A stretch of DNA of 42,882 nucleotides from a virus, in the IMG/VR virus record IMGVR_UViG_3300050011_000065, positions 1 through 42,882 of that record. The stretch is one strand, 5' to 3'. Both the position numbers and the translations under genes were made by a program. Below are positions 4,550 to 32,641 of this stretch, piece after piece. Each line of letters opens with the position of its first letter. The stretch's first letter is position 1. A model generated the notes under the pieces. It ran no database searches, was not told the DNA's origin, and worked only from the letters and a program-made list of their open reading frames with translations.

Positions 4550-5031
4550 GGCTGAACATCGGCTGCGGCCCGTTCTACCGTGAGGGCTGGACGAACCTCG
4601 ACACCGAGCCCACGGTCCACCCCGACGTGATCGGCTCCATCTTGGCGCTGCCCTTCGACGCGGCCTCTGCCACCGCGGTCTATTGCGGCCACGTCCTCGA
4701 GCACGTCCCCCTGCAGGACATTCCTGCCGCGCTCGCCGAAGTCCATCGCGTGCTGGTGCCGGGTGGCAAGCTCTGCGTGGTCGGGCCCGACTTCACCCGC
4801 ATCCGAGAAGACACGCCAGAGAACGAGGTCGAGTGGGTCATCTACGGCTCCAAGCGGTGGGCCGGGGACTTCCACCAGTGGGCCTGCTGCGAGAGCCTCG
4901 TGGAGCGGTTCGTGCGGGACGCCGGGTTCCTCGACGTGATCGCCCGCCCGATCATCGACCCTGACCTCGGCGAGTGGTCGATCCCTGGCACGGCCTATCC
5001 GTGGCAGTGCGTGGTGCTGGCCACCCGATGA
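4546..5031 (+). CDS. SAM-dependent methyltransferase, class I (161 aa)
   Basis: It carries motif I LNIGCGP at residues 3-9, an acidic residue at the end of the second strand (NLDTEP), and the HVLEHVP / VHRVLVPGGKL block of the Methyltransf_11 type. This group often acts on sugars or small molecules, not DNA. The GTG at 4546 overlaps the previous stop (GTGA), so it is translationally coupled between two glycosyltransferases; O-methylation of a transferred sugar is a reasonable inference. Confidence 0.8.
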   Translation: MRLNIGCGPFYREGWTNLDTEPTVHPDVIGSILALPFDAASATAVYCGHVLEHVPLQDIPAALAEVHRVLVPGGKLCVVGPDFTRIREDTPENEVEWVIYGSKRWAGDFHQWACCESLVERFVRDAGFLDVIARPIIDPDLGEWSIPGTAYPWQCVVLATR

Positions 5032-5690
5032 GGGACCTCCTCGTGATCGTCCCCACCAGGGGGAGGCCGCAGAACCTCCGCCGGCTGCTCAAGGCGTGGG
5101 AAGAGACGGAAGCCACCGCGGACCTGATCGCCTGCGTGGACACCGACGACCCCTTCCTCGATGAGTACGTGGCGATGGATCTCGACTTCCTTGCCAGCGG
5201 TCCACGTCAGGGGCTCGTGGGCTGGACGAACGAGGCAGCGATGGAGTACTGCGATCAATACCGCTACCTCGGCTCCATCGGCGATGACCACGTCCCGAGG
5301 ACGGTGGGCTGGGACCGTCGCATCTGCGACGCCCTCAAGGAACTCGGCACGGGCATCGCCTACGGCGACGACCTCATCCAGCACGAGGCACTCCCCACCG
5401 CCTGCTTCCTGACCTCCAACATCGTCCGAGCCATCGGCTACATGTGCCCGCCGTCACTGGAGCACCAGTACATCGACAACGTCTGGCTCGGCTGGGGTCG
5501 GGCGCTGGGCCTGCGCTATCTTCCGGACGTGGTGATCGAGCACATGCACCCAGTCGCCGGCCAGGTGCAGGGCGACGCGCTCTATGACGAGAGCGCGGCT
5601 TTGATGGACAGGGACCGGCGGGCGTTCGAGGAGTACCTGGCCAACAGCTTCACCTCTGACATCGCCAAGGTGGCACTCTCATCCGTGTAA
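5028..5690 (+). CDS. Glycosyltransferase-like protein (220 aa)
   Basis: It begins at ATG 5028, overlapping the methyltransferase stop (ATGA). The N-terminus LLVIVPTRGRPQNLRRLL and the later CVDTDDP and IGDDHVPR segments fit a GT-A glycosyltransferase with an acidic metal site. The C-terminal half (WLGWGRALGLRYLPDVVIEH) resembles phage and bacterial family 2-like proteins. Together with the flanking genes it belongs to a sugar-decoration cassette. Confidence 0.72.
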   Translation: MRDLLVIVPTRGRPQNLRRLLKAWEETEATADLIACVDTDDPFLDEYVAMDLDFLASGPRQGLVGWTNEAAMEYCDQYRYLGSIGDDHVPRTVGWDRRICDALKELGTGIAYGDDLIQHEALPTACFLTSNIVRAIGYMCPPSLEHQYIDNVWLGWGRALGLRYLPDVVIEHMHPVAGQVQGDALYDESAALMDRDRRAFEEYLANSFTSDIAKVALSSV

Positions 5691-5773
5691 GGGTATTCCC
5701 GTCAGACAACTCCGGCTGCGGGTGGTATCGCCTCCGTTGGGCAGCGGCCGCTCTGAGGGCTCAGGGAGAGGAC
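5681..5773 (+). other. Probable N-terminal extension of the next glycosyltransferase, without a canonical start
   Basis: The frame of the gene starting at 5774 stays open upstream to 5660 and encodes RVFPSDNSGCGWYRLRWAAA followed by ALRAQGEDV, which reads like the first strand and glycine turn of a GT-B enzyme. No ATG, GTG or TTG lies in frame before it. ATC at 5681 has AAGGTGG seven bases upstream and overlaps the end of the previous gene. A rare ATC start or a sequence error are the two explanations. Confidence 0.5.
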
Positions 5774-6727
5774 GTGACCGTCTCGCGTGGCGTCTCGGCC
5801 CAGTGGGAGTCGACGCCGTGGGGGCCGCGGCTTCACGCCGTCGCGAAGGTCGACGCCGACGTGGCCGTCTTCCAGCGCGTCTTCCGTCCTGACCTCGTCC
5901 TGCTGATGCGTGCGATCCGGGAACAGGGCGTGACCGTGGTGCTCGACCTCGATGACGACTTCAGCGCCCTCGGCCCGAGACACCCCGTCTTCGAGGAAAT
6001 CCACCCTCGTCGAGGCGATACGGTCAAGTCCACGGCAGCGCTCCGCGAAGCCGTCAAGGTGGCCGACCTGGTCACCGTGAGCACTCCCGCGCTGGCGCGT
6101 AAATACAACGGTGTGGTTGTTCGCAACTGCATCCCACGGGCCTATATGGGTATTGAGCGCAACGAGAGCCACGAAATCCCACTGATCGGTTGGACGGGGA
6201 CGCCGAAGATGCATCCCGACGACCTTGAGGTGGTCGGGGACGCCGTCCGGCGGATCTGTGCGACGGAGGCCAGCTTCCGCGCCATCGGTGACCGGACCAC
6301 CCTTGACGTTCTCGGCGTACCGGATCAGCAGCACCAGCCCGGCGCTCGCCTTGACAACCTCGATTACGCCCACCTTGTCGCACAACTGGACATCGGCATC
6401 GTCCCGCTGGCTGATTCGGCCTTCAACCGCTCCAAGTCCTGGCTCAAGGGTCTGGAGTACGCAGCCCTCGGCGTCCCCTTCGTCGCCTCGATCGTCGCTG
6501 AGTACGAGGCGCTCAACTACATGGGCGTTGGTTCGCTGGCTGGCCGTCCCAACCAGTGGTACGCCTGCCTCCGTGGGCTCGTTGAATCCCCTGACCTCCG
6601 TCTGGCGATGGCTGCCCGAGGACGGGCGGTAGCTTCCACGCTGACCATCGAGGACACGATGGCTCCACAGGTCTGGGAAGCATGGAAAGCCGCTCGCTAC
6701 GCTAAGTCGCCCGTTCTGCTACGCTAA
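5774..6727 (+). CDS. GT-B fold glycosyltransferase (family 4-like, 317 aa or longer)
   Basis: GTG 5774 is the first canonical start, preceded by GGGAGAGG, but coding sequence seems to extend upstream to about 5681. Features include LDLDDDFSALG, VTVSTPALARKY, the domain-switch segment IPLIGWTGTPKMHPDDL, and the C-terminal WLKGLEYAALGVPFVAS with the glutamate position typical of retaining GT-B enzymes that bind the donor. It is the last sugar gene of the cassette. The C-terminal codons are made of the GCTACGCTAAG repeats that precede the lipoprotein. Confidence 0.8.
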   Translation: MTVSRGVSAQWESTPWGPRLHAVAKVDADVAVFQRVFRPDLVLLMRAIREQGVTVVLDLDDDFSALGPRHPVFEEIHPRRGDTVKSTAALREAVKVADLVTVSTPALARKYNGVVVRNCIPRAYMGIERNESHEIPLIGWTGTPKMHPDDLEVVGDAVRRICATEASFRAIGDRTTLDVLGVPDQQHQPGARLDNLDYAHLVAQLDIGIVPLADSAFNRSKSWLKGLEYAALGVPFVASIVAEYEALNYMGVGSLAGRPNQWYACLRGLVESPDLRLAMAARGRAVASTLTIEDTMAPQVWEAWKAARYAKSPVLLR

Positions 6728-7040: not shown

Positions 7041-7162
7041 CGGCTCCCGCTAAGTGGCGGAAGTGCGACCAGTGCTCTAAGCCGTACCGCTGGCTCCGAC
7101 TGACGTCGAGGTACTGCGGTGCGGTCTGTCGCGTAGAAGCGCGTAGGGCTAGGGCGCGATGA
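7037..7162 (+). CDS. Micro zinc-ribbon protein (41 aa)
   Basis: It starts at GTG 7037 overlapping the lipoprotein stop (GTGA). The sequence has CDQC and, 15 residues on, CGAVC, followed by an Arg-rich tail (RVEARRARAR). This looks like a treble-clef-like or zinc-ribbon mini-domain with a nucleic-acid-binding tail. No specific function can be named. Confidence 0.6.
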   Translation: MTAPAKWRKCDQCSKPYRWLRLTSRYCGAVCRVEARRARAR

Positions 7163-7317
7163 GCGACGGACTGTACGACTTGCTCGGCTCGCACGAGCGG
7201 TGGCTGGACTTCGACGCGCTAAGCGATCGCGGCAGCGTTGTTGAGTTCGCCTACCACATGGACGCTCTTGAGGCGGTGCGCCAAGCCATCAAGGCATGGG
7301 AGGAGGAGCACCCATGA
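7159..7317 (+). CDS. Small acidic hypothetical protein (52 aa)
   Basis: ATG 7159 overlaps the preceding stop (ATGA) and its own stop overlaps the next ATG, so it is part of the coupled mini-operon behind the lipoprotein. The protein is rich in Asp, Glu and aromatic residues and probably helical (LEAVRQAIKAWEEEHP). I do not recognise it. Confidence 0.6.
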   Translation: MSDGLYDLLGSHERWLDFDALSDRGSVVEFAYHMDALEAVRQAIKAWEEEHP

Positions 7318-7490
7318 GCGGGATAACCCACATCCACTGCCTCCGGTGCCGCTGCGCCATTGAACTGACTGGGGACTGGTTCGCGGCCGATGCCTTGATG
7401 GTGGCCTGTCCGACGTGTCACTCGGAGACCTATCTGTCGCTGTCGTTGGTTACCCCAGAAGTTGCACCGAAAGGGAGAGTGGGGGAATGA
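7314..7490 (+). CDS. Zinc-ribbon protein (58 aa)
   Basis: It carries CLRC at residues 10-13 and CPTC about 20 residues later, a compact zinc ribbon. The gene starts at ATG 7314 in a 4-base overlap. Its end encodes GRVGE and a stop inside the sequence GGGAGAGTGGGGGAATGAGC, which also gives the next gene its ribosome site and start. The same junction recurs in the minus-strand array at 27.6-28.4 kb. Confidence 0.6.
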   Translation: MSGITHIHCLRCRCAIELTGDWFAADALMVACPTCHSETYLSLSLVTPEVAPKGRVGE

Positions 7491-7693
7491 GCACGGACGA
7501 TCTGGTGGTATTGGAGATGGGTCACGAGATGGATCGCCTAGAGGCCCTCTCTGAGGAGCGGCGTCAGTGGATCGAGGAGCATCAATGGCTGCCCATGGGA
7601 CCATTTGAGCACGACTACTGCGTGGGTGGTTGTGGTGCGCTTGAGCCCAAACACCACCCCGGCTGCTCCGTTCCTCACCTGATTCTCGACTAA
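7487..7693 (+). CDS. Zinc-binding protein of the WIE-CSVP paralogue family (68 aa)
   Basis: The segment ERRQWIEEH, then CVGGC, then HHPGCSVPHL matches proteins encoded in the minus-strand array near 28 kb (SEARRQWIEAH, CVQCQGC, HAPDCSVPRL). The Cys and His residues suggest one zinc site. The start at ATG 7487 follows GGGGGA and overlaps the upstream stop. The shared junction and protein family suggest that this gene moved between the two arms as a cassette. Function unknown. Confidence 0.65.
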   Translation: MSTDDLVVLEMGHEMDRLEALSEERRQWIEEHQWLPMGPFEHDYCVGGCGALEPKHHPGCSVPHLILD

Positions 7694-7703
7694 GGGTAGA
7701 AGC

Positions 7704-7722
7704 GCGCAGGGCAACCCTGCGC
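7704..7722. terminator. Strong hairpin before the capsid gene
   Basis: GCGCAGGG (7704-7711) and CCCTGCGC (7715-7722) form a perfect 8-bp stem with a CAA loop. No T-run follows, so it could be a weak terminator, a processing site or an mRNA-stabilising element upstream of the capsid message. The remaining gap to 7858 holds no gene. The capsid gene has the ribosome site GGAGG just before its ATG. Confidence 0.45.
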
Positions 7723-7858
7723 TCCCCCTAGGGTGACGGTGAGGCCACTGGACGCTCCCGGATAGCGGAGCAGAGAGTGGACCGCCCTCACCGAGGCGGC
7801 TCCCTGGATACGGAGGCCACTGAGGCAAGTTAGTTCGACTTGTCCCTGGAGGCCCCAA

Positions 7859-25794: not shown

Positions 25795-26027
25795 CCAAGC
25801 CAGTAAGCCCAGAGGAGTTCTTCGCCGCGGAAGTGCCGCGAGCCAAGTGCTTCCTCTGCCGGCTGTCGATCCGCGAGGAGATGGAGCGAGCCCGTCTTGC
25901 GGGAGTGAGCCTCTCGTCTCTCGCCCGCTGGGTAGCCGCTGTCCACCCTGATGTGCGTCTAGGGCAGTCCGCGATCTCGCGGCACTTCTCAGAGCGCCAC
26001 CATGAACGAAACACCTCCGTCTCCTGA
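25791..26027 (+). CDS. Small HTH-like protein with CFLC motif (78 aa)
   Basis: CFLC (about residues 20-23) is followed by a helical region LAGVSLSSLARWVAAVHPDV and LGQSAISRHFSERHH that looks like a helix-turn-helix with a recognition helix. Function unknown; it may be a DNA-binding partner of the phosphoesterase that follows, whose start lies inside its end. Confidence 0.55.
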   Translation: MTKPVSPEEFFAAEVPRAKCFLCRLSIREEMERARLAGVSLSSLARWVAAVHPDVRLGQSAISRHFSERHHERNTSVS

Positions 26028-27024
26028 GGAGTTCGTCGAGGACGAGGAACAGAAGGACACAATCAGGAGGCTCACCCGACAACTCGCCAAGGCGAAGTCG
26101 AAGACTGAGGACTTGGTTGACGCCGTCTACCGAGGCACGCGGGACTCGTGGATCGTCGAGAAGGCGATAGCCACTCCCCGCCCTGAGCGGCTCGACAAGC
26201 GCCGCAACAAGGCGGCAGAGGTGGCGCTGTGGCACATGACCGACTGGCAGGGAGCGAAGCTGACCACCAGCTACAACAGCGAGATCATGATCGAGCGGGT
26301 GCACCGCTTCGTCGACAAGGCCCAACAGATCACGGAGATCCAACGCACCGACCACCCTGTCCGCGCCGCCGTCCTCCTCTTTGGGGGTGACGTCGTGGAG
26401 GGCCTCTGGAATTTCAGCACCCAACCCTTCGAGATTGACGCCACCATCTTTCGCCAGTGGACGACCGTGTCGCGGCTGCTCACGGACGTGGTGCGCCGGG
26501 CCTTGGGCATCTACGAGCAGGTCACCGTTGTAGCCGAGTGGGGGAACCACGGACGCATGGGTTCCAAGCGTGATGCCGTGCCACGCAGCGACAACATCGA
26601 CCGCATGTGCTACGAGGTAGCGCGGATGGCGCTCGCCCACGAGACGCGACTCCACTGGGAGGACTGTCCCGAGGACATCCAGCGCGTCGAGATCGGCAAC
26701 TATCGGGCGCTCTCCATCCACGGCGACGAGGTCGGGCGCTCCGGGTTCGCCTCGGCGCCCACGATGATCCAGCACGTCAACCGCTGGCGTTCAGGTGCGT
26801 ACCCGTGGGCCTTCACAGACTGCTACATCGGCCACTACCACCGCCACGCGGAGGAGCCCCTGGCCGACGGTATCGGTGCCGTCTACTGGACGGGCAGCAC
26901 CGAGAGCGACAACCGCTATGCCGGGGTCACGATGGCCGCGTCAGCCACGCCCACCCAGCGACTTCACTTCATCAATCCCGAGGCGGGCCACGTAACCAGC
27001 CAGCACAAGATCCGGCTGGCCTAG
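26002..27024 (+). CDS. Calcineurin-like metallophosphoesterase (340 aa)
   Basis: Metal-binding motifs of the family can be seen: HMTDWQ (78-83), FGGDVVEG (GD at 129-130), EWGNHGRM (GNH at 181-183), SIHGDEVG (about 237) and GHYHRHAE (about 273). The N-terminal 50 residues are a charged coiled-coil. Related phage proteins are annotated as phosphoesterases or exonuclease-like; a DNA end-processing or nucleotide role is possible. The last 84 bases are overlapped by an antisense LAGLIDADG gene. Confidence 0.8.
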   Translation: MNETPPSPEEFVEDEEQKDTIRRLTRQLAKAKSKTEDLVDAVYRGTRDSWIVEKAIATPRPERLDKRRNKAAEVALWHMTDWQGAKLTTSYNSEIMIERVHRFVDKAQQITEIQRTDHPVRAAVLLFGGDVVEGLWNFSTQPFEIDATIFRQWTTVSRLLTDVVRRALGIYEQVTVVAEWGNHGRMGSKRDAVPRSDNIDRMCYEVARMALAHETRLHWEDCPEDIQRVEIGNYRALSIHGDEVGRSGFASAPTMIQHVNRWRSGAYPWAFTDCYIGHYHRHAEEPLADGIGAVYWTGSTESDNRYAGVTMAASATPTQRLHFINPEAGHVTSQHKIRLA

Positions 27025-27411
27025 AGCGGGCCGGCGCGCATGGGCTGGGTAGGCTCGTTCGCGCCCCGCCTTGGCCCGCGCTGTATCAATCTGCCCCTGA
27101 CGACGGGCGCCCATCAGTGGGTAAACGCAGTCCATCAGCCAGAAGGCGTCCTCGATTGCTCCAGCCGCCCACTGCCAGCAGAACTTGCGGCCGTTCCTGA
27201 CGCCCACGTCACAGATGTGACCGACCCCCGTGACGGCCTCGAGCCTCTCCAACACGTCCAGGTCGGTTGACTGCATCGACACGCGGGGTCTGCTCTGGCC
27301 GTGAGTTGTGACGACCATGAAGGAGCCTTCGCCCTCAAGCAGGCCGGCGACCCAGCCCAACTGAGCAGGCGTCATCTCCTGTCCAGTGAAAGGTCGACAT
27401 CTAGCGGTCAT
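26941..27411 (-). CDS. LAGLIDADG homing endonuclease, antisense (156 aa)
   Basis: The motif LGWVAGLLEGEGSF (about residues 18-31) is a LAGLIDADG motif with the catalytic acidic residue; DVLERLEAVTGVGHI and AIEDAFWLMDCVYPLMG are typical downstream elements. One motif only, so it would act as a dimer. The C-terminus (GQPDLVLAGYVARLG) is the antisense of the metallophosphoesterase end. The true start may be ATG 27375 (MTPAQLG), which has CAGGAG directly before it, instead of 27411. Confidence 0.82.
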   Translation of the reverse strand: MTARCRPFTGQEMTPAQLGWVAGLLEGEGSFMVVTTHGQSRPRVSMQSTDLDVLERLEAVTGVGHICDVGVRNGRKFCWQWAAGAIEDAFWLMDCVYPLMGARRQGQIDTARAKAGRERAYPAHARRPALGQPDLVLAGYVARLGIDEVKSLGGRG

Positions 27412-27438
27412 GGTTCGTTGATCCAGAGAAGGGGAAGG

Positions 27439-27663
27439 TCACGGCGTCGTACGCCGTTCAACTGCTCGGCTAGAGCGAGCGTCAATGACGTCTTGGCGCA
27501 AGGCGATCCGCTCGAACTGGCGTAGGCGGGTGACCTCGGCGAGAAGTTTGGCGTTCTCGGCGGTGGCATCCGTCAGTTCATCGCGCAAGAGTTCGCGGGT
27601 GTACTCCAGCATCGCAATCCACTGCTGCGCCTCGTAAATGGTTTCTGGCTCCTCCCGGCTCAT
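27439..27663 (-). CDS. Small coiled-coil protein, last gene of the leftward array (74 aa)
   Basis: Residues about 15-60 form a leucine-rich, charged helix (LRDELTDATAENAKLLAEVT). The start is inside the shared junction sequence (ATGAGC at the end of the previous cassette). After it there is only a short gap before the LAGLIDADG gene. Function unknown. Confidence 0.6.
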   Translation of the reverse strand: MSREEPETIYEAQQWIAMLEYTRELLRDELTDATAENAKLLAEVTRLRQFERIALRQDVIDARSSRAVERRTTP

Positions 27664-27851
27664 TCCCCCATTCTCCCACGCAGCAAACTAGGGACGGAGC
27701 ATTCGGGGCGGTGGGGTTCCTTGCCGTCCCTGGCGTCGTTCCAACACTCGCCGCACTGGTCGGTGCCGTACCCAGCCGTTGCCCCGTACTCCTCGATCCA
27801 CGCACGAAGCCGGAGCACTTCCGCCGTTAGATCGCTGACCTGATCGCTCAT
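27660..27851 (-). CDS. WIE-CSVP zinc protein (63 aa)
   Basis: MSDQVSDLTAEVLRLRAWIE, CGECW and RPECSVPSLL define it as a member of the repeated zinc family; it is nearly the same in its first 25 residues as the N-terminus of the fusion at 27848-28414. It ends GRMGE plus stop inside the shared junction. Function unknown, probably nucleic-acid or protein binding through a single zinc site. Confidence 0.68.
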   Translation of the reverse strand: MSDQVSDLTAEVLRLRAWIEEYGATAGYGTDQCGECWNDARDGKEPHRPECSVPSLLRGRMGE

Positions 27852-28414
27852 TCCCCCATTCTCCTAATGAGCCGAGGAACGGAGCAGTCGGGGGCGTGTT
27901 CGAGGGGCGTCGCGGAGTCCTCCTCCTGCATAACGAAGCACCCTTGGCACTGGACGCACTCGACCCACGGCCCCACGTCCGCCAATTGGTGGGCTTCGAT
28001 CCACTGCCGACGGGCTTCAGAGAGGGCACGGGCGTCGAGAAGGTCTCTGGCCATCTTGTGCGTCTTGATCGGACAACCGGCGTCTCCCGTCCGACATTTG
28101 CTGATCGCCGCACGAACGTCCTCATCGCTCACCCTCTCTTTCCGGAGAGCCTCAAGGTAGCGGCTCGTCTCCGTCTCCATCAGATCGCGAGCCACTCTCG
28201 CCCTGGTCGTGGGCTCCTCGCTCATTCCCCCATCCTCCCACGCAGCAAACTGAGGAACGGAGCAGCCGGGAAGGTGGCAGAAGGTGCGTACCGTGGCGTC
28301 GGAAGATACGGTACCCACGCACTCGGGGCAGTAGTTGCTCTTGACTGCGTGCTCCGTGATCCACGCACGACGACGGAGCACGTCCTCCGTCAGATCGCTC
28401 ACCTGATCGCTCAT
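27848..28414 (-). CDS. Fusion of two zinc-family cassettes (188 aa)
   Basis: The N-terminal half copies the 27660 gene (MSDQVSDLTEDVLRRRAWI, CPEC, PGCSVP) and the C-terminal half has SEARRQWIEAH, CVQCQGC and HAPDCSVPRL. At the join the reading frame passes through the usual junction sequence because of one extra base near 28252 compared with the 27660 copy, so the first cassette's stop is bypassed. The internal ATG at 28225 with GGGGGA would still allow the second part (125 aa) to be made alone. Could also be a sequencing error. Confidence 0.65.
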   Translation of the reverse strand: MSDQVSDLTEDVLRRRAWITEHAVKSNYCPECVGTVSSDATVRTFCHLPGCSVPQFAAWEDGGMSEEPTTRARVARDLMETETSRYLEALRKERVSDEDVRAAISKCRTGDAGCPIKTHKMARDLLDARALSEARRQWIEAHQLADVGPWVECVQCQGCFVMQEEDSATPLEHAPDCSVPRLIRRMGE

Positions 28415-28665
28415 TCCCCAATCCTCCCGTGCGAACTGACGTAGGTGCCGGGTGGGTAGTAGATCACTCCCCCGGTCACAATGGCCCGTGACGGCAGCCG
28501 CCCGATAGACTGCACTGCTCGCCGAATCGCCGCCGTGTCATCAGCCACTCCGTCACCGACCGCTCCGTAGTCCTTGACGTTCACCCAAAAGGGGCGTGGC
28601 CACGGACGGCGCAGAACCAACACGACTGCCGCGACGCCCAGCGCGATCCGAAGTATCCGCTTCAT
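28411..28665 (-). CDS. Membrane-anchored fragment of a pectate-lyase-like protein (84 aa)
   Basis: An N-terminal signal anchor (RILRIALGVAAVVLVL) is followed by VNVKDYGAVGDGVADDTAAI and GGVIYYPPGTYVSS, the characteristic first coil of pectate-lyase-3/glycosyl hydrolase 28-type beta-helix proteins. The helix itself is missing; the gene stops with GRIGE in the shared junction. It is either a decayed fragment moved into the array or a small domain reused alone. Confidence 0.6.
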   Translation of the reverse strand: MKRILRIALGVAAVVLVLRRPWPRPFWVNVKDYGAVGDGVADDTAAIRRAVQSIGRLPSRAIVTGGVIYYPPGTYVSSHGRIGE

Positions 28666-29066
28666 TCCGCCATCCTACCCCTCAGCACATCCTCACAGGC
28701 TCGAGCGCCTCCTTCGGGTGAGCGTCCCTCCAGCAGCGAGATGGGGAGGGTCTCCGCTGCACAGAGGCGCACAAGGCCCACCCATTGGAGCCTGGACCGC
28801 AAGTCGGGGTTCAAGCCTCGGTCGATCGACTGGTGGTCCGCCTTGCACAGTCCCATCGTCAGCGAGGGCGAGCTGCACCACGGCTCTCCGATGATGTGCC
28901 GGCGGCCGAATAGGTGCGCCCACTCAGTCGGAGCCTCATGGCATTCCTCGGCCTCGCACTTGGCCCCTGCCCTACGCATCACTGCCAGACGACTGCGTGC
29001 GTGGTGATCGGCCCACCTCTCCTTTACTGGCCCGCGTGCAGGGAGACGACGGGGAAGGCTGGTCAT
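28662..29066 (-). CDS. Zinc protein with HNH-like motif (134 aa)
   Basis: I start at ATG 29066 (MTSLPRR), which overlaps the previous stop (ATGA). CEAEECHEAPTEWAHLFGRR and LCKADHQSIDRG resemble the metal-binding scaffold of HNH or treble-clef nucleases (C-C, then LC..DH). It ends GRMAE plus stop, as other cassettes. Nuclease or recombination accessory role possible; not proved. Confidence 0.55.
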   Translation of the reverse strand: MTSLPRRLPARGPVKERWADHHARSRLAVMRRAGAKCEAEECHEAPTEWAHLFGRRHIIGEPWCSSPSLTMGLCKADHQSIDRGLNPDLRSRLQWVGLVRLCAAETLPISLLEGRSPEGGARACEDVLRGRMAE

Positions 29067-29275
29067 GGCTCTCGTTTGGGACACGGTCCCTCGGGTTGAT
29101 GGCGGGCCGGGTGACCGAGAACTTCGGGACCGTGACCCGGCATCTGCTCGCCATCCCAGCTAGCCTGCGACGATCCCCTGATCCCGCACCAGCAGCACTG
29201 CACGGGATAGATCGGCGGGTTCATGTCTAGCACCACCCCCGCGACCCCGTGCCAACAGTGATCGGTGTTGCTCAT
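29063..29275 (-). CDS. Small Cys/His protein (70 aa)
   Basis: CWHG near the N-terminus and CCWCG about 20 residues later form a likely zinc site. The rest is Pro/Gly-rich. ATG 29275 overlaps the upstream gene's stop. Similar CWH...C-x2-C proteins are found in many actinophages, but no function is known to me. Confidence 0.55.
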   Translation of the reverse strand: MSNTDHCWHGVAGVVLDMNPPIYPVQCCWCGIRGSSQASWDGEQMPGHGPEVLGHPARHQPEGPCPKREP

Positions 29276-32293: not shown

Positions 32294-32641
32294 TCATCGC
32301 AAGTACCCGTGGGCTTCGAGGATCTGCAACATCTCGCTGTACTCGGACAGCGACGTGATGACGTAGGCATCACCAGCGGGCTTCTGCCGCCGCTTGAACA
32401 CGACCGCATGCCAGCGTGCTTTGGCGTTCTTCTGCTCCTTCTCCGCCTCAGCCACAGCCGCGCCCATCTGCATCACTCCGGTGGCCTTGCACTCCAGCAC
32501 CACCCCAGGCAGCCCAGCGATGTCCCCAGCGTCGAGCGTTCCCCGGAGCGCCCTTCGCTCGCAGTTCTCCCACCCGTCGCCTTGCAGGAACGCCACGACG
32601 GCGGACTCCCAGGCGGTGCCCTTCCGCTTATTCACGCTCAT
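32294..32641 (-). CDS. PD-(D/E)XK nuclease, VRR-NUC/resolvase-like (115 aa)
   Basis: KGTAWESAVVAFLQ, then RALRGTLDAGDIAG and GVVLECKATG provide the glutamate, D...ExK active site of the PD-(D/E)XK fold. Small phage enzymes of this type act as Holliday-junction resolvases or flap nucleases. It is the last gene of the right leftward operon and ends six bases from the HTH stop. Confidence 0.75.
   Translation of the reverse strand: MSVNKRKGTAWESAVVAFLQGDGWENCERRALRGTLDAGDIAGLPGVVLECKATGVMQMGAAVAEAEKEQKNAKARWHAVVFKRRQKPAGDAYVITSLSEYSEMLQILEAHGYLR

Follow-up and report, generated by a model that had tools for sequence, protein, structure and literature searches.

Why should small genes that look unlike each other be joined, one after another, by nearly the same 20 bases? 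The question is raised by a minus-strand array in a 42,882-base virus record from an uncultivated phage (the window, by which we mean the whole stretch of DNA analysed; G+C 64%), both ends of which carry 127 identical bases. The repeated seam, J (GGGAGARTGGGGGAATGAGC), occurs in the window in five copies with at most two mismatches, four in the array and one at a second locus (Table 1), and such copies were found in none of 100 dinucleotide-preserving shuffles. The five near-identical junctions reported in an earlier note on this DNA are thus reproduced, and the weaker copy that it listed at the head of the array, J1, is real but degenerate, with 67% identity over 36 nt within the same repeat family and differences from J3 at 5 of 18 compared positions. 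The 10-mer GGGAATGAGC is found at the five J places and nowhere else in the window, which implies that J is not the general start signal of the phage.

Table 1 Features of the array, the adjoining gene and the second locus; mismatches are counted against GGGAGARTGGGGGAATGAGC.
Feature	Position	Strand	Remarks
Endonuclease-like gene	26941..27411	minus	phrog_5046 (named HNH endonuclease), E=9e-15; PF00961 LAGLIDADG, E=0.023, below cut-off
Coiled-coil-like gene, last of the array	27439..27663	minus	74 aa; 3' end ERRTTP-stop is the right border
Seam copy J5	27658..27677	minus	0 mismatches; the 31 bp of its extended form (27658-27688) recur unchanged in the J of the relative
Cys/His paralog c	27660..27851	minus	63 aa; ends CSVPSLLRGRMGE
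Seam copy J4	27846..27865	minus	1 mismatch; conservation begins at AGGAG and the upstream extension is missing
Cys/His paralog b	27848..28225	minus	125 aa when started at the ATG of J3; forms the last part of the 188-aa ORF 27848-28414
Seam copy J3	28220..28239	minus	1 mismatch; over the 35 bp of its extended form (28216-28250), 97% identity with the J of the relative
Cys/His paralog a	28222..28414	minus	fused in frame to paralog b
Seam copy J2	28409..28428	minus	2 mismatches; upstream extension aligns with a 3-nt gap
Pectate-lyase-like fragment	28411..28665	minus	84 aa; hydrophobic N-terminus; seam tail SSHGRIGE; PF12708, E=1.9e-14; tail spike PHROGs
Seam copy J1, degenerate	28659..28678	minus	between the HNH-like gene and the pectate-lyase-like fragment
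HNH-like gene, heads the array	28662..29084	minus	3' end (tail LRGRMAE) is the local degenerate seam form
Zinc-ribbon-like gene	7296..7490	plus	seam tail GRVGE at 3' end; Pfam zinc-ribbon matches all below cut-off
Seam copy, second locus	7473..7492	plus	0 mismatches; absent from the relative
Cys/His paralog d	7487..7693	plus	absent from the relative at the corresponding place

J places an SD-like GGAG(G) in the last codons of the upstream gene, followed by an ATGA stop-start overlap and an ATGAGC start, so that the junction supplies the ribosome site and the start of the next gene, as had been proposed. ATGA is present at all six seams, and each of the six window copies sits at a start. Only one of the three reading frames of J contains a stop, and mutually unrelated upstream proteins share the same tail: GRMAE at J1, GRIGE at J2, RRMGE at J4, GRMGE at J5 and GRVGE at the second locus. 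The claim that every upstream protein carries a GR(M/V/I)GE-like tail therefore holds at J2, J5 and the second locus, with the variants RRMGE and GRMAE at J4 and J1, and fails at J3. There the upstream frame reads ...FAAWEDGGMSEE... through the seam, giving a single 188-aa ORF in which a 1-nt difference before J3 has fused paralogs a and b. This ORF could reflect a genuine fusion, a frameshift or an error in sequencing; as a fusion it means that the seam does not separate genes in every case.

Small genes lying between repeats also recall integron cassettes, with J as the attachment site, and phages have been reported to carry integrons (PMC9892861). This explanation is hardly credible for the present array. 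J overlaps coding sequence and is not an inverted repeat, no attC core was seen, and no integrase was found among those 29 of the window's proteins that were scanned against PHROGs. Folding of four of the seven copies gave no consistent RNA structure (z-scores -0.57, 1.03, -0.03 and -1.90): three fold no better than shuffles, and the fourth, the copy of the close relative described below, was matched by 10 of 200 shuffles.

The array is the last part of a minus-strand DNA-metabolism operon that runs leftward through replication-initiator-like, methyltransferase, RusA-like and Mu Gam-like genes, all on the same strand as the five seams, to the HNH-like gene and the array. It terminates against a convergent exonuclease-like gene (26002-27024), for which no Pfam match was found. 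The endonuclease-like gene that adjoins the array is absent at the corresponding place in the relative, as judged by alignment; it overlaps the 3' end of the exonuclease-like gene. The gene at the head of the array we take to be HNH-like from its Cys/His spacing together with a weak match to phrog_8446 (E=0.058); this assignment is weak, and the AlphaFold model of the protein is poor (mean pLDDT 56.2). Of the 213 profile positions of the pectate-lyase/tailspike domain, the pectate-lyase-like fragment matches 1-48 alone, and no source gene for this orphan N-terminal piece turned up in the window or in the 40,000 bases (of 40,108) examined in the relative. Towards the other end of the window, glycosyltransferase-like genes lie at 4974-6727, between the portal/protease genes and the capsid gene.

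Several of the genes between the seams are related to each other. Paralogs a, b, c and d of the window and paralog e of the relative form one family of small Cys/His proteins with R.WI, H and CSVP in common; nine of the ten pairs beat all 500 shuffles, and the b-a score was reached by 1 of 500. All five clear paralogs in the two genomes directly follow a J, and the J copies are identical at 17-19 of 20 positions between the five units. The start region of paralog a recurs in paralog c (80 nt, 86%), and the unit bodies range from clearly similar DNA (a-c) to DNA barely or not above shuffles (d-c, e-c), where the identities skip gaps and are thereby inflated, with shuffled baselines of about 0.67-0.74. 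A short gene at 7159-7317, which has no J, is a possible but doubtful distant paralog (profile search E=0.031; E=0.0072 with paralog d as query). No clear relation to the paralogs was detected for the pectate-lyase-like, coiled-coil-like and 7296 zinc-ribbon-like genes, nor for the HNH-like gene, which stood outside the shuffle test; the best score of the coiled-coil-like protein, with paralog c, was reached by 7 of 500 shuffles and is a weak hint. The description of the genes as unlike each other is thus only partly true, since the genes after J2, J3, J4 and the second-locus seam are paralogs. Since four of the six genes that follow a window seam belong to one family, tandem duplication accounts for much of the array and exchange between phages is not needed for that part.

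A single close relative was found, the viral contig IMG/VR 3300048800_000013 (40,108 bases), which matches the window along most of its length, with 74-95% DNA identity in the longer blocks. A search that tolerated up to 3 mismatches showed one J in it, at the syntenic position, where it separates the orthologous HNH-like gene from paralog e; here too the junction marks a gene boundary. The bases that recur unchanged at J5 are GTTTGCTGCGTGGGAGAATGGGGGAATGAGC. Between the same two borders the relative has one gene and the window five, and the array matches the relative at the borders only, the outcome that the earlier note had named as support for cassette exchange. At the right border, positions 27418-27460 are 93% identical to 16817-16859 of the relative, where the last gene ends EPHTTP-stop. 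The DNA of the coiled-coil-like gene beat 30 of 30 shuffles against unit e, which is expected from the common 3' border. At the other border, the HNH-like genes share 53% of their amino acids and 61% of their DNA (247 of 402 aligned bases). The gene of the relative ends LLRGRMGE, and that of the window ends with nearly the same peptide in diverged DNA, 20 of 27 bases being identical in the last nine codons. At the second locus, the zinc-ribbon-like gene and its counterpart in the relative differ from about 7450 onwards. The similarity between the two genomes breaks off near 7448 and is back by 7739, and the block of J plus paralog d (7449-7738) has no counterpart in the relative. Because this comparison involves two genomes, in which gain and loss look alike, we infer the direction of any change.

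The origin of J is suggested by its longest conserved stretch, 31-35 bp, whose upstream part corresponds, in the relative, to the 3' end of the HNH-like gene. Ahead of the SD stands the extension TTTGCTGCGTGG, which in the relative forms the end of that gene and which recurs at the ends of paralogs a and c. The end of the pectate-lyase-like fragment aligns with it with a 3-nt gap. The copy in paralog a is frame-shifted: at J3 the extension is read as FAAWEDGG instead of LLRGRMGE, and the identity there is consequently not explained by protein constraint, while copying explains it. The ends of paralog b and of the 7296 gene have only the part from the SD on in common with the end of the HNH-like gene. 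As the same gene-end sequence recurs at a, at c and at the pectate-lyase-like fragment, once in another frame, J is best read as a boundary seam made of a copied gene end and the next start, and neither as a protein motif nor as an independent site.

On this basis we think it probable that the seam formed by the tail of the HNH-like gene was copied to added genes through duplication, capture, replacement and placement at a second locus, by recombination between short repeats. J would correspond to the last ~30 bp of the HNH-like gene (LLRGRMGE-stop with the SD-like GGAG(G)) plus the ATGAGC start of the next gene, and the ancestral order was likely that of the relative: HNH-like gene, J, one small Cys/His gene, right border. 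In the lineage of the window, recombination between short repeats would then have added genes. Tandem duplication of the J-plus-Cys/His unit may have given a, b and c, a fragment of a pectate-lyase gene may have been captured, the body of the last gene may have been replaced by the coiled-coil-like gene, and a J-plus-Cys/His unit may have been placed at 7473. Each addition would bring all or part of the tail of the HNH gene to the boundary, so that the upstream gene ends there, which is the case at five of the six seams, and a restart on the ATGA overlap becomes possible for the next gene, presumably by coupled translation. Several observations argue against this model. The final nine codons differ between the two HNH-like genes as described, so that J1 in the window has drifted while the copies have not; J4 and the second-locus copy are conserved only from the SD on, so that no uniform single unit fits all copies; J5 precedes a gene that is not clearly related to the paralogs; the possible paralog at 7159-7317 is without a J; the HNH assignment is weak; the 188-aa ORF crosses a seam; and some other phages have repeated junctions too.

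The part of J from SD to ATG could be conserved by selection on the start signal alone, and this leads to another account of the whole seam, in which J is kept as a strong signal for coupled translation (SD plus ATGA overlap) under selection on the expression of small early genes, perhaps read by a phage factor as suggested for the start-associated sequences (SAS) of mycobacteriophages. The shape of J is indeed that of a general junction signal. In 99 loci chosen independently of the motif, 37 of 120 GGAGG-N4-8-ATGA sites separate two open frames of 40 codons or more, as do 6 of 23 GGGGG-N0-3-ATGA sites, compared to 817 of 9526 ATGA sites overall. In unrelated viral contigs the exact J stands at a gene junction in four of five cases, for which the commonness of the stop-SD-start shape may be the reason, and a sibling motif in 8 of 15; those 15 and 5 loci, selected for motifs of this kind, make up the whole set of 20 GGGGGAATGA sites and hence provide no independent control. 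Against this account, J is unused at the other starts of the phage, its conservation starts ~30 nt ahead of the ATG, within the coding sequence of upstream genes and in different frames, and the four copies folded gave no consistent RNA structure. We consider a translation signal as the whole explanation possible but doubtful.

To see how unusual the repeated junctions are, we took the 18 positions around each ATGA overlap that joins frames of 40 codons or more, and counted pairs within 5 mismatches. The window has 11 such pairs; two 20-kb pieces of the relative have 0 and 0, lambda 0, the right part of Pixie 3, Island3 3, Faith5x5 0, SunnyD 1 and Stromboli 2. A set of 39 other records or loci, with lambda and four parts of the relative among them, gave none. 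At 35 codons, a scan of 79 loci that carry the flanking exonuclease gene gave one locus with a pair, a weak one. Repeated near-identical ATGA junctions are uncommon. In Curtobacterium phage SunnyD, two nearly identical 20-base start contexts lie in a small-gene region (at 32607 and 36343).

The alternative raised by the earlier note is that the array is an exchange site, in which recombination at J between different phages would exchange unrelated genes. The two genomes have different content within the same borders, the pectate-lyase-like fragment and the zinc-ribbon-like gene carry seam tails while being unrelated to the paralogs, a J-plus-gene block at the second locus is absent from the relative, and RusA-like resolvase and Mu Gam-like genes lie in the same operon. 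Searches for a third genome with a related J had no success. The five other exact matches to J in viral contigs are all single copies, at loci in which no Cys/His or HNH-like proteins were found. The phage collection contained no near DNA match to positions 12-30 kb of the window and no relatives of paralog c or of the HNH-like protein at E 0.01, and paralog d gave 10 records with a best E of 0.3; a distant search with the array returned one 60-bp piece, from Synechococcus phage S-SRP01, inside the pectate-lyase-like fragment. In all collections the patterns used were exact or degenerate ones, which could miss distant donors. In genome contigs no exact match to the extended J was found, and the capsid query gave one short match, to a Spirochaetes MAG. 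In viral contigs the capsid protein is present at 15 loci, one at 95% and the others at 29-39%; alignment searches with the Cys/His and HNH-like proteins returned the same relative only, and single-protein searches with them returned no match. In viral contigs 329 relatives of the exonuclease-like gene were found, and the best 80 of these, minus the close relative, are the 79 loci scanned above: they contain one J-like site within 5 mismatches and no match to the Cys/His or HNH-like proteins. Their G+C is 38-56%, with one exception at 64%, the value of the window. Overall, seam-associated gene gain or loss is supported, and cassette exchange between phages is possible, though unlikely. The idea of swappable genes stands insofar as gene content differs and the second-locus block is absent from the relative; it is weakened by the paralog duplication, which explains much of the array, by the extension of the conserved stretch into the end of the HNH-like gene, which the earlier note does not mention, and by the commonness of the stop-SD-start shape.

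We also considered J as a target of the adjacent HNH-like nuclease, which would cut at the 3' end of its own gene, with repair from other copies of J. This would amount to homing-driven gene capture, in which genes headed by a stop-SD-start sequence accumulate and tend towards translatable operons. We regard it as quite improbable, and any role for the neighbouring endonuclease-like genes is speculation.

Copying of the seam to added genes remains the reading that we prefer. The array would then be a readable record of a phage lengthening a set of small genes without loss of translation: because the seam unites stop, SD and start, most additions could be expressed at once. It is a clear but probably ordinary example of gene addition that does not break translation, and the analysis names a seam that can be tested.

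A literature search gave no paper on tandem paralogs with intergenic repeats in phages. The array can be set beside three published systems. The SAS of cluster K mycobacteriophages are a 13-bp sequence (GGGATAGGAGCCC), of which 11-19 copies are reported over the non-structural half of the genome (PMC3203893). Like them, J is short and repeated, and its SD core precedes the starts of different small genes by a few nucleotides. About half of the SAS copies are described there as having extra inverted repeats, and the upstream stop sometimes lies within the SAS. Our scan showed GGGATAGGAGCCC at many starts in the right part of Pixie; the repeat of the window is instead J at six seams, a different sequence, confined to one array and one further site and reaching into the upstream gene end. 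The resemblance to SAS noted earlier thus extends to position and SD content and not to sequence, and we consider the link analogous. The lambda nin genes are likewise linked by ATGA (PMC8022706; also Kroger and Hobom 1982 as cited). As there, the window has a chain of tightly packed small genes joined by ATGA overlaps, within an operon of replication and resolvase genes, whereas the ATGA junctions in the lambda record are not near-copies of each other. The closest parallel is phage Island3, whose gene 68 is reported to end with a copy of the end of gene 67 where Brujita has one copy, a case tied by its authors to the short boundary sequences proposed for lambdoid phages (PMC3029335), conserved borders suggested to be recombination points (Clark 2001, Susskind and Botstein 1978, cited in PMC3029335 and PMC8022706). 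In the Island3 record we see both tails, each ending GATGA at the stop, and an annotated 1-nt overlap of the two genes. In the window too the 3' ends of added genes copy that of an upstream gene (paralog c, paralog a frame-shifted, the pectate-lyase-like fragment gapped), and the one near relative, with its single copy, is without the added genes. Island3 has one added gene and a common stretch of ~50-60 bp, compared to at most 31-35 bp here, where four good copies and one degenerate copy stand in an array, with amplification of paralogs and a second locus. A new class of element is not established by these differences: the window is the published single-gene case of Island3 extended to an array and a second locus.
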